Assembly (NCBI GenBank): GCA_004298385.1
Contig: SCTX01000089.1
Span: forward strand, 1-64,000
Origin: Betaproteobacteria bacterium
GTDB lineage: Bacteria; Pseudomonadota; Gammaproteobacteria; Burkholderiales; SG8-39
Direction of reading: 5' to 3'
DNA: 64,000 nucleotides
Shown: piece by piece, positions 13,505 to 55,752 of the stretch
Position numbering within the stretch: position 1 is the first letter of the stretch
How the letters are laid out: the number at the start of each line of letters is the position of its first letter
Notes under the pieces: model-generated
Told to the model about the DNA's origin: nothing
Seen by the model: only the letters and a program-made list of their open reading frames with translations
The model's database searches: none
Position numbers and translations under genes: made by a program

Positions 13505-13612
13505 GGTTGCCACTATTTTAATCCCTAAGCCGGACTGACCGGAAGCGATCAACGCGCGTGCGGCTTGGAACAAGCCCTAGTCCGCCGGCCAGGGGTTTCG
13601 CGCCCGGCTTGG

Positions 13613-21733: not shown

Positions 21734-21837
21734 GGCAGAGGAGCTTGCGGCGAAAAGAGATGCGTATTATAGCTTGGGAAGATCTGATCAAGGCCGCGCG
21801 CCGATCAGACCAATTGCGGCGCGGGGGTTCTATACAA

Positions 21838-22042
21838 GATCGCCGATCGCGAGCGGATACGCTGTTCATCCGCGCGCGATCGGCGATCCGCGCGGACGGG
21901 TCGCCGTCCACGCAAGTTCGATCGGCGCAGTTCGGTGTACTCCCCTACGTCGAGCGATGTCGCCGGGCGGTCATTGCGCGCTCCGCGCGCCAACCGTGTT
22001 TCCCGTACGGATGAAAAGCGCATCCGTACGGGAAACACGGTT
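21838..22042 (-). repeat. Structured dispersed element, full copy 1
   Basis: 205-bp multi-hairpin element. Read on the minus strand: hairpin H1 (22042-21992, 20-bp perfect stem, 11-nt loop tgcgcttttca), a small GCGCGC stem, a variable linker, hairpin H2 (21913-21890, 10-bp stem, one G-U type pair), hairpin H3 (21888-21838, 20-bp stem, one mismatch, 11-nt loop). It matches the plus-strand element at 55423-55628 in order, spacing and partly in sequence, with compensatory changes in stems. A smaller 7-bp hairpin lies at 21783-21809. It fills the argS-priA gap and has no U-tract typical of a terminator. Confidence 0.85.
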
Positions 22043-22093
22043 CTGAATAGACGCAACATCAGCGTGGCCCGATCTAGATCGCCACCCACAAGA

Positions 22094-27539: not shown

Positions 27540-27732
27540 GGATTCCCCGCAAATGCCGTCAGGCCCGCATCCTCTGAACCTGCAGTCCAGAGTGGTCGCG
27601 TTCCGGCCGCCGTAGGTACATCCGCAATCGCGCGAGGCGAAGGGACGCGCACAAAAGCGGCGCTAGGGTCCGCAACCTCAGCACATATATTGGTTCAAGG
27701 AATATATGGCCTAAACGAGCATCGCAGGGAAA
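27540..27732 (-). ncRNA. ssrS: 6S RNA
   Basis: About 193 nt on the minus strand, downstream of zapA as in many beta- and gammaproteobacteria. The 5' end TTTCCCTGCGATGCTCGTTTAGGCC lines up with the E. coli 6S start, and the 3' end GGTTCAGAGGATGCGGGCCTGACGGCATTTGCGGGGAATCC with the E. coli 3' end; these ends can pair into the closing stem. 6S RNA binds sigma-70 RNA polymerase in stationary phase. End points are estimates. Confidence 0.83.
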
Positions 27733-27763
27733 CATTTCGCGGTCTGGCCCGCCCGGACGCGAT

Positions 27764-28299: not shown

Positions 28300-28502
28300 G
28301 TAATAACACGCAACTCTCAATGCTCTTTCCATGATGAATAAGCCGCCCTATTTGATTGACCCGGCGCACGATTTCGAGGCCGCCGATTTCTTGCCGGACT
28401 GCGCCCGAAGGCGCGCCAGACCGGGCCCTTTTCCGCATGTTCTCGCACCTCCGCGGCCGAAAATTTTTTATTTATCGGCGATACTGTGTAAAATCGCTGC
28501 AC

Positions 28503-28700
28503 TCGTTCGAGGTGTCCGCCGGCGATTCCTGCCGGCGGGTGAAACGGGAAACAGGTACAGCGTGTAGCTACGCTCAAGCCTGTGCTGCCCCCGCAACGGT
28601 AGGTGAGCGCGGGTTTGTCACGATGCCACTGTAAGCAAACGCTTACGGGAAGGCGACAAATCCAATCCCACAAGCCCGGAGACCGGCCTTGCGCGACAAG
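28503..28700 (+). promoter_or_regulatory. Cobalamin riboswitch
   Basis: Conserved parts in order: ggtg near 28511, gggtgaaacgggaaacaggt (28536-28555), ctgcccccgcaacggta (B12 box, 28584-28600), gccactg (28625-28631), gggaaggcg (28647-28655) and agcccggagaccggcc (28672-28687). It lies in the leader of btuB, so adenosylcobalamin should shut off B12 uptake. A -10-like TAAAAT at 28489-28494 lies just upstream. The rest of the 28264-28500 stretch has no supported gene. Confidence 0.93.
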
Positions 28701-28812
28701 TGGAAACACTGCGGGGATGCGGTGCGCCGGTTGCGCTTTCGATTTCCCCCTGCGTTTCCTTCGTTGTTTCAATTGTGCAGCCTGCGGGGACGCCGGCTGT
28801 TGGGGGAAAATC

Positions 28813-45650: not shown

Positions 45651-45697
45651 TCTCCGGATTAGTCGCTTACGCACCAGCAGCTTCCGGCCTGTCCGGC

Positions 45698-47632
<1,935 letters not shown>

Positions 47633-47718
47633 CTAGAAAAGCTGCTCGCGCCGGCGCACCCGCGCCAGCCGGACTAATGTGAATGTGACCCAAGGGAGCG
47701 GAGACAGGAGGGAGAACT

Positions 47719-47815
47719 GCTCACGCTTCCCTGCGGCGGCATTATCCGCATCAGGTTCAAAGGGACTCTCTCACCCGCACCGCCGATTTCCGGCACTCGC
47801 GCAGGACCCCTAACG
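47719..47815 (-). promoter_or_regulatory. TPP riboswitch
   Basis: Minus strand shows the THI box parts in order: ggggtcctgcgcgagtgcc, gcgggtgagagagtccctttgaacctgat, gcggataatgccgccgcagggaagcgtgagc. It lies in the thiC leader, about 100 bases from the start codon, so thiamine pyrophosphate should repress thiC. Confidence 0.95.
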
Positions 47816-47921
47816 TCAGGAGGCCAAGGTACCGCAATCGCTGGTGTTTTGCAATTGCGCAGCGCCCGCTGCAGCGGGCAACCCGCGGCAAGATCCTGTC
47901 CGTGACGATCGGACATTGCGG

Positions 47922-55390: not shown

Positions 55391-55422
55391 GGCAAGCTCG
55401 AGCCGTATTTGCTTTTTTCCAT

Positions 55423-55628
55423 AACCGTGTTTTCGGTACGGATGCGCTTTTTGTCCGTACCGGAAACGCGGTTGGCGCGCGATAGCGCGCAAAGCCAGCG
55501 AATGCACCCCAGCGAACAACGGAGATCTCCTCAAGCCACGGTGCCCGAGCTTGCGCGGACGGCGGCCCGTCCGCGCGGATCCTCGATTGCGTACGGACGA
55601 TGACCCTGTCCGTACGCAATCGAGGATC
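55423..55628 (+). repeat. Structured dispersed element, full copy 2
   Basis: 206-bp element in the convergent tolC-waaA gap. H1: arms 55423-55442 and 55454-55473 (20 bp, two G-U type pairs, 11-nt loop tgcgctttttg); GCGCGC mini-stem (55475-55490); linker; H2: arms 55553-55562 and 55567-55576 (10 bp, 4-nt loop); H3: arms 55578-55597 and 55609-55628 (20 bp perfect, 11-nt loop). Same order and length as copy 1 at 21838-22042, inverted. Confidence 0.88.
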
Positions 55629-55664
55629 TTGAATAAAACCATAATCGCTTTTGCCTTTATCCAC

Positions 55665-55752
55665 AACCGTGTTTTCTGTACGGATACGCTTTTCATCCGT
55701 ACAGAAAACACGGTTCGCGCGCGCAGCGCGCAATGGCCGCCAGTCTACGTCG
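55665..55752 (+). repeat. Structured dispersed element, partial copy
   Basis: H1 only: arms 55665-55684 and 55696-55715, 20-bp perfect stem, 11-nt loop tacgcttttca, then the GCGCGC block (cgcgcgcgcagcgcgcaatggccgcc). It ends at the 3' end of waaA, where H2 and H3 are missing. Confidence 0.8.

Follow-up and report, generated by a model that had tools for sequence, protein, structure and literature searches.

Two classes of bacterial repeat are usually kept apart: MITEs, which are defined by their ends, and REP/BIME sequences, which are defined by inverted palindromes. MITEs are small and have terminal repeats and target repeats (PMC10969869, PMC2229807). REPs carry GTAG or CGTC tags, mostly have stems of 6-13 bp (PMC3733652), and are tied to RAYTs, while compensatory stem changes have been described for REPINs (PMC3116915). 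For some bacteria, REPs and MITEs are known that work in 3' UTRs as RNA elements (PMC3733652, PMC10969869). The element described here joins the two classes: it is a variant combining MITE ends with a REPIN-like core. The family is real, abundant, and genus-restricted; a literature search confined to open-licence papers found no description of it, and within those papers it is undescribed. We consider it probable that the element is MITE-type non-autonomous mobile DNA with a REPIN/BIME-like core, nearly confined to one uncultured Burkholderiales genus.

The window, a stretch of 64,000 nucleotides, contains two arrays of hairpin modules, termed A and B, at 55410-55733 and 21827-22055. Each module contains a hairpin of 51 nt whose stem is 20-22 bp long. 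In the first array, on the plus strand, module A (55410-55491; profile match, E = 5e-22) comprises a leader, a long hairpin at 55423-55473 with two mismatches, and a GC mini-hairpin. An A-to-B linker of the 53-bp class follows at 55492-55547 (a gap of 53 bp with a recurring consensus), and then module B (55548-55639; E = 5e-25), in which GC hairpin H2 (55553-55576) and a long hairpin with a perfect 21-bp stem (55578-55628) are followed by TTGAATAAAACC. A second module A (55652-55733; E = 6e-26), with its long hairpin at 55664-55714 (perfect 21-bp stem) and GC mini-hairpin, forms with module B the canonical B-A unit at 55551-55740, for which the RNA folding z-score is -12.75. The second array, in the priA-argS gap, lies on the minus strand and consists of module A (21974-22055; E = 2e-24; long hairpin 21992-22042, perfect 22-bp stem), a linker of the 53-bp class (21920-21973) recognized by linker comparison, and module B (21827-21919; E = 8e-26; long hairpin 21838-21888 and GC hairpin). 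A probable decayed left terminal repeat of this copy, weak alone, lies at 22068-22090 on the same strand with 7 mismatches to the repeat; the same place in the orthologue of genome G004 carries a terminal repeat with 2 mismatches.

The original prediction had described these loci as a 205-bp multi-hairpin element of constant geometry. Its plan of H1, mini-stem, linker, H2, and H3 is indeed shared by both loci, which are mutually inverted and lie 3' of tolC and priA; H1 and the mini-stem correspond to the module A at 55410-55491, and H2 and H3 to the module B at 55548-55639. The uniform 20-bp stem and 11-nt loop did not hold, as reading and folding of the two loci gave stems of 20-22 bp, loops of 6-11 nt, and two mismatches in H1 at 55.4 kb. 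All hairpins named there are present, but the third long hairpin at 55664-55714 had been overlooked. The proposed common apex was borne out in a fuller form, CGGATR-YGCTTTT-YATCCG, common to A and B. The linker, thought to have diverged, is not free sequence: of 50 A-to-B linkers, 35 measure 53 or 54 bp and show a clear consensus. As for the 205-bp A-B stretch, it is a real recurring junction, drawn too small to be the basic unit.

To compare copies, modules were aligned from fetched loci. Module A consists of TTTTTATCCAT, a 51-nt hairpin (AACC...GGTT), and GGCGCGCGCAGCGCGCAATG; module B, in window orientation, consists of CTTGCGCGGACG..CGTCCGCGCG, a 51-nt hairpin (GATC...GATC), and TTGTATAAAACC. 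The reverse complement of B follows the plan of A, with a TTTTAT leader, a long hairpin with the apex CGGATG-YGCTTTT-CATCCG, a short GC hairpin, and CGCGCAA, so that A and B look like inverted relatives in their alignments. A kissing-loop interaction between the A and B modules of a unit was considered and rejected, since inverted kinship explains the loop complementarity and no within-unit co-variation was found (292 of 2000 shuffles reached the observed value for B-A). Among 149 arrays clear of locus ends, whose counts are biased by the way loci were fetched, the commonest form is B-A (83), and not A-B (17) as had been supposed. The remainder include A alone (17), A-B-A (12), B-A-B (7), and B-A-B-A (6), and alternation is near-strict, with a single exception (B-B-A). 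The spacer from B to A varies little, and the 190-bp B-A is the most frequent BLAST piece in congeners. Arrays such as A-B and A-B-A would arise via tandem growth, internal deletion, and end loss.

Outside B-A, weaker conservation runs outward as far as TATACGTGGCGACTTAAAT (left) and ATTTAAGACGCCGTATA (right), which form imperfect terminal inverted repeats and enclose B-A in complete copies. These copies measure 272-278 bp end to end and read, in order, terminal repeat, small GC hairpin, hairpin B, short spacer, hairpin A, small GC hairpin, and terminal repeat, with TA at the ends. They are thus under 500 bp, and they encode no protein; no transposase gene was found inside any copy. Both terminal repeats were detected in 8 of 91 B-A arrays and are absent or unrecognisable in most copies. 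With up to three mismatches allowed, the left repeat was found at 73 places in nine of 14 genus genomes, and nearly all inspected occurrences have A and/or B alongside, whole or truncated. Occurrences without modules are deletion remnants (L278; L291 at position 367) or, in one case, an isolated repeat (L344). Complete, end-less, and array forms coexist across a dozen related genomes.

Like the TA-ended bacterial MITEs (Correia/NEMIS, RUP, and ERIC; PMC2229807), the element is small, non-coding, and intergenic, with terminal inverted repeats, TA ends, stable folds, and presence or absence among relatives. It differs from them in its length of 272-278 bp (about 100-200 bp for those MITEs), in being GC-rich, in its two separate long covarying internal hairpins, and in its tandem mosaic arrays; moreover, IS630-Spn1 has been proposed as the parent of RUP (PMC2229807), whereas no parent IS was found for the element. 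QMITE2 of Coxiella (PMC10969869) is likewise a MITE whose truncated, end-less copies resemble REPs, but it has direct repeats of 7-9 bp and an unrelated host, and its description, in the part considered here, mentions no hairpin core of two modules. Among the identities first suggested, the non-autonomous mobile unit comes close, given complete copies of about 275 bp with terminal inverted repeats and TA ends, and an empty site in relatives. Counted against the MITE reading, conservation is stronger in the hairpin core than at the ends, opposite to what a plain MITE shows.

Further copies of the element exist, contrary to the outcome that would have refuted the original prediction. BLAST of 55409-55640 against its own genome (3.55 Mb, 169 contigs) gave 86 matches, some of which are palindromes matching themselves on the opposite strand. 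The apex CGGATRYGCTTTTYATCCG, with at most one mismatch, is present in 74 copies (41 + 33) in this genome, where a reversed control of the pattern has zero occurrences. Twelve of 13 other genus genomes contain the apex, ten with 37-181 copies and two with 1-3. The named carriers are uncultured Burkholderiales or Betaproteobacteria MAGs, including NC_groundwater_1600_Pr3_B-0.1um_63_13, RIFCSPLOWO2_12_FULL_64_23, Chersky.17_31, and Hainich-H52-bin064-1. An order-wide sample of 399 genomes yielded, outside the genus, two hits spaced as A-B in one other genus of the family and only two further single one-mismatch hits. The spaced pair (G027, C39:3049-3222) may be a transferred copy, a contaminant, or what is left of an old one. 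Hits to the apex in unrelated phyla were set aside, being estimated at about the chance number for the pattern and collection size, with three within genes.

Orthologous gaps are filled or empty depending on the genome. The tolC-waaA gap carries B and/or A modules in G000, G011, G005, G004, G008, and G002, and none in G003, G013, G012, G001, and G006, while G009 has only an H2-like remnant. Among readable genomes, the priA-argS gap is filled only in G000, G004, and G009, and the same gap can hold different module strings in different congeners. At one site, on contig C5 of G000, a query of the joined flanks found the sequence uninterrupted in seven congeners. The junctions there, marked by slashes, are GAC/TATACG...GGACA/TAGAATCC, compared with GAC/YARGATTC in the seven empty orthologues. 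These junctions are compatible with insertion at TA and duplication of TA; with TA already at both ends of the element, a single clean site cannot establish the duplication. A trans-acting transposase would recognise the terminal repeats and insert the element at TA, probably duplicating TA.

Other repeats occupy the same gaps. Beside argS, at 21771-21805 of the window, lies a different short repeated palindrome, CTTGGGAAGNTCTGATCAAG, with a part inverted nearby (GATCAGA). Two copies are present in the same argS-priA gap of G005 (L244); exact matches are confined to loci of this gap, and similar stretches occur in G004, G009, and G006. A hairpin repeat, CGAGGGGA...TCCCCTCG with ...CCATTTCAGAATTACCGAAATGGCC, occurs in the tolC-waaA gap of G003 (L215) and the priA-argS gap of G002 (L252); its presence in G002 and in the element-free G003 possibly marks a second dispersed family. 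In G011 the argS and priA flanks are on different contigs, each terminating near the element site, and element copies may contribute to breaks in these MAG assemblies.

The long stems covary well beyond the two copies in the window. Watson-Crick pairs fill 94.0% of pair cells across 160 distinct A hairpins, compared with 77% in column shuffles, and in 126 B hairpins the figures are 92.7% and 82.5%, an excess of roughly 10-17 percentage points. Pair 13-39 of A, for instance, has three common types (TA 59, CG 50, and GC 42). Across congeners, same-locus copies showed 88 double pair-preserving differences and 128 single ones, where about 19 double differences of any kind were expected if the sides were independent; these counts are uncorrected for shared ancestry. 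When each module is read on the strand with the YGCTTTT loop, G-T mismatches are more frequent than A-C mismatches. The excess is centred on pairs 15 and 16 (105 to 9) and is marginal at the remaining pairs (83 to 58; P = 0.04). As A and B are inverted, this wobble signal points to opposite strands of the unit, which speaks for strand recognition by each module and not for a single RNA. The inverted hairpins would stay paired because they are folded as single strands, either as DNA in replication or transposition or as 3' UTR RNA, and the strand bearing the YGCTTTT loop in each module would be the one that is read.

Arrays show a bias toward positions downstream of genes. Gene context, derived by running a simple gene finder based on codon bias over fetched loci, placed 141 arrays with both neighbours called in 49 convergent, 83 tandem, and 9 divergent gaps, compared with 27, 159, and 54 for other 40-800 bp gaps of the same loci (P = 3e-9); arrays are thus enriched between convergent genes and depleted between divergent ones. 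In tandem gaps, modules usually begin about 50 bp past the upstream stop codon, with only the outer arm between. This placement, together with the very stable fold, the tolerance of G-T pairs, and the precedent of known REPs and MITEs in some bacteria (PMC3733652, PMC10969869), would suit host selection that keeps the hairpins as 3' UTR RNA elements (mRNA stabilisers, processing sites, or terminators), irrespective of what mobilised them. We regard such selection as unlikely, though not negligible. The orientation of arrays is random relative to transcription (same direction in 34 of 83), the wobble signal falls on opposite strands for A and B, and the same gap is filled or empty by species. 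An equal location bias would be expected if insertions elsewhere were harmful. Intrinsic terminators were rejected, with 2 weak sites against 0.8 (SD, 0.9) expected and none on the long hairpins.

Stem pairing might instead be unselected, with one arm templating correction of the other through hairpin template switching or gene conversion among copies. At some loci, copies are separated by 4-5 paired changes within a single stem while their flanks are 85-95% identical (L009/L242 and L059/L345), which exceeds what stepwise compensation easily yields. Against such correction, single-sided differences are common too (128, compared with 88 double), and a symmetric process would not be expected to give the strand-asymmetric excess of G-T at pairs 15 and 16; we judge it possible, at low probability. 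With the presence/absence sites and the strand-specific wobble, two matters become testable: what mobilises hairpin repeats of this orphan kind, and whether selection or arm-to-arm correction underlies their stem covariation.

A more specific version of the mobile-element reading, which we offer only tentatively and think doubtful, is a terminal-repeat MITE/REPIN hybrid in which each hairpin is read on its YGCTTTT single strand, on opposite strands of the unit, by a putative enzyme that moves the element or repairs its stems. Both genomic orientations would then work alike.

The element also resembles REPIN/BIME sequences (PMC3116915, PMC2817692): its palindromic modules form inverted doublets at a set spacing, their orientation alternates, changes are compensatory, and copies lie at 3' ends. 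The suggestion of a REP/BIME-like family is accordingly half right: inverted palindromic modules with covarying stems, near-strict alternation, and fixed linkers are present, whereas a canonical REP is not. The hairpins are near-perfect and 51 nt long, their flanks (ATCCAT and GGCGCGC in A; CGCGCG and TTGTATAAAACC in B) are without GTAG or CGTC, no linked RAYT was found, and outer terminal repeats are present. We find it improbable that mobility resides in the inverted hairpin pair alone, with a Y1 tyrosine transposase (RAYT) or similar enzyme transferring the pair as single-stranded DNA and the outer repeats being incidental. The prevalence of inverted doublets over rarer singles, the core conserved above the ends, the stems covarying as in REPINs (PMC3116915), and the G-T excess on the YGCTTTT strand would suit it, but at the sole clean insertion the junctions coincide with the outer repeats. 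In addition, a RAYT partner was rejected: the copy-rich genomes G002 (89% complete) and G008 (59% complete) lack Y1 genes, G003 has Y1 genes but zero copies, and the fetched Y1 loci are without A or B modules except at L192. The L192 array lies near an IS200-type gene, but it recurs in another genome (L097), so this proximity was not counted as linkage. The linked REP-associated transposase that had been proposed as a check was thus sought among these loci and not found.

For the preferred MITE-type reading, likewise, neither Y1 nor DDE_3 transposase presence tracks copy number, and none of the Y1, DDE_3, or DDE_Tnp_1 families searched in the genus genomes, fragmented MAGs that easily lose IS, accounts for the element. 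IS630 (DDE_3) and DDE_Tnp_1 were rejected as autonomous partners for want of matching ends, and no autonomous IS with the element's ends was found among the terminal-repeat, DDE_3, and DDE_Tnp_1 loci of these incomplete MAGs; this too counts against the MITE reading. An autonomous parent IS is not required in every use of the term MITE. Palindromes at L199 (G006) and L119, GTGGGAGCGAGCTTGCTCGCGA, resemble classical Pseudomonas-type REPs, and a Y1 transposase gene adjoins them in L199; by their sequence they look like a separate REP/RAYT system in the genus.

A single structured RNA, also suggested originally, is disfavoured by the random orientation and the opposite-strand wobble, and an Rfam family identity was rejected, as the element gave only sub-threshold hits, mostly to microRNA hairpin models, beneath gathering scores. 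Elsewhere in the window, Rfam matches over gathering scores are a cobalamin riboswitch (28493-28705, plus strand), a TPP riboswitch (47711-47821, minus strand), and 6S RNA (27540-27733, minus strand). A 33-bp inverted pair at 13514-13546 and 45680-45712, 32 kb apart, 82% complementary, and with ends TATTTTAATCCC/GGCTTAGG, may be another repeat family.
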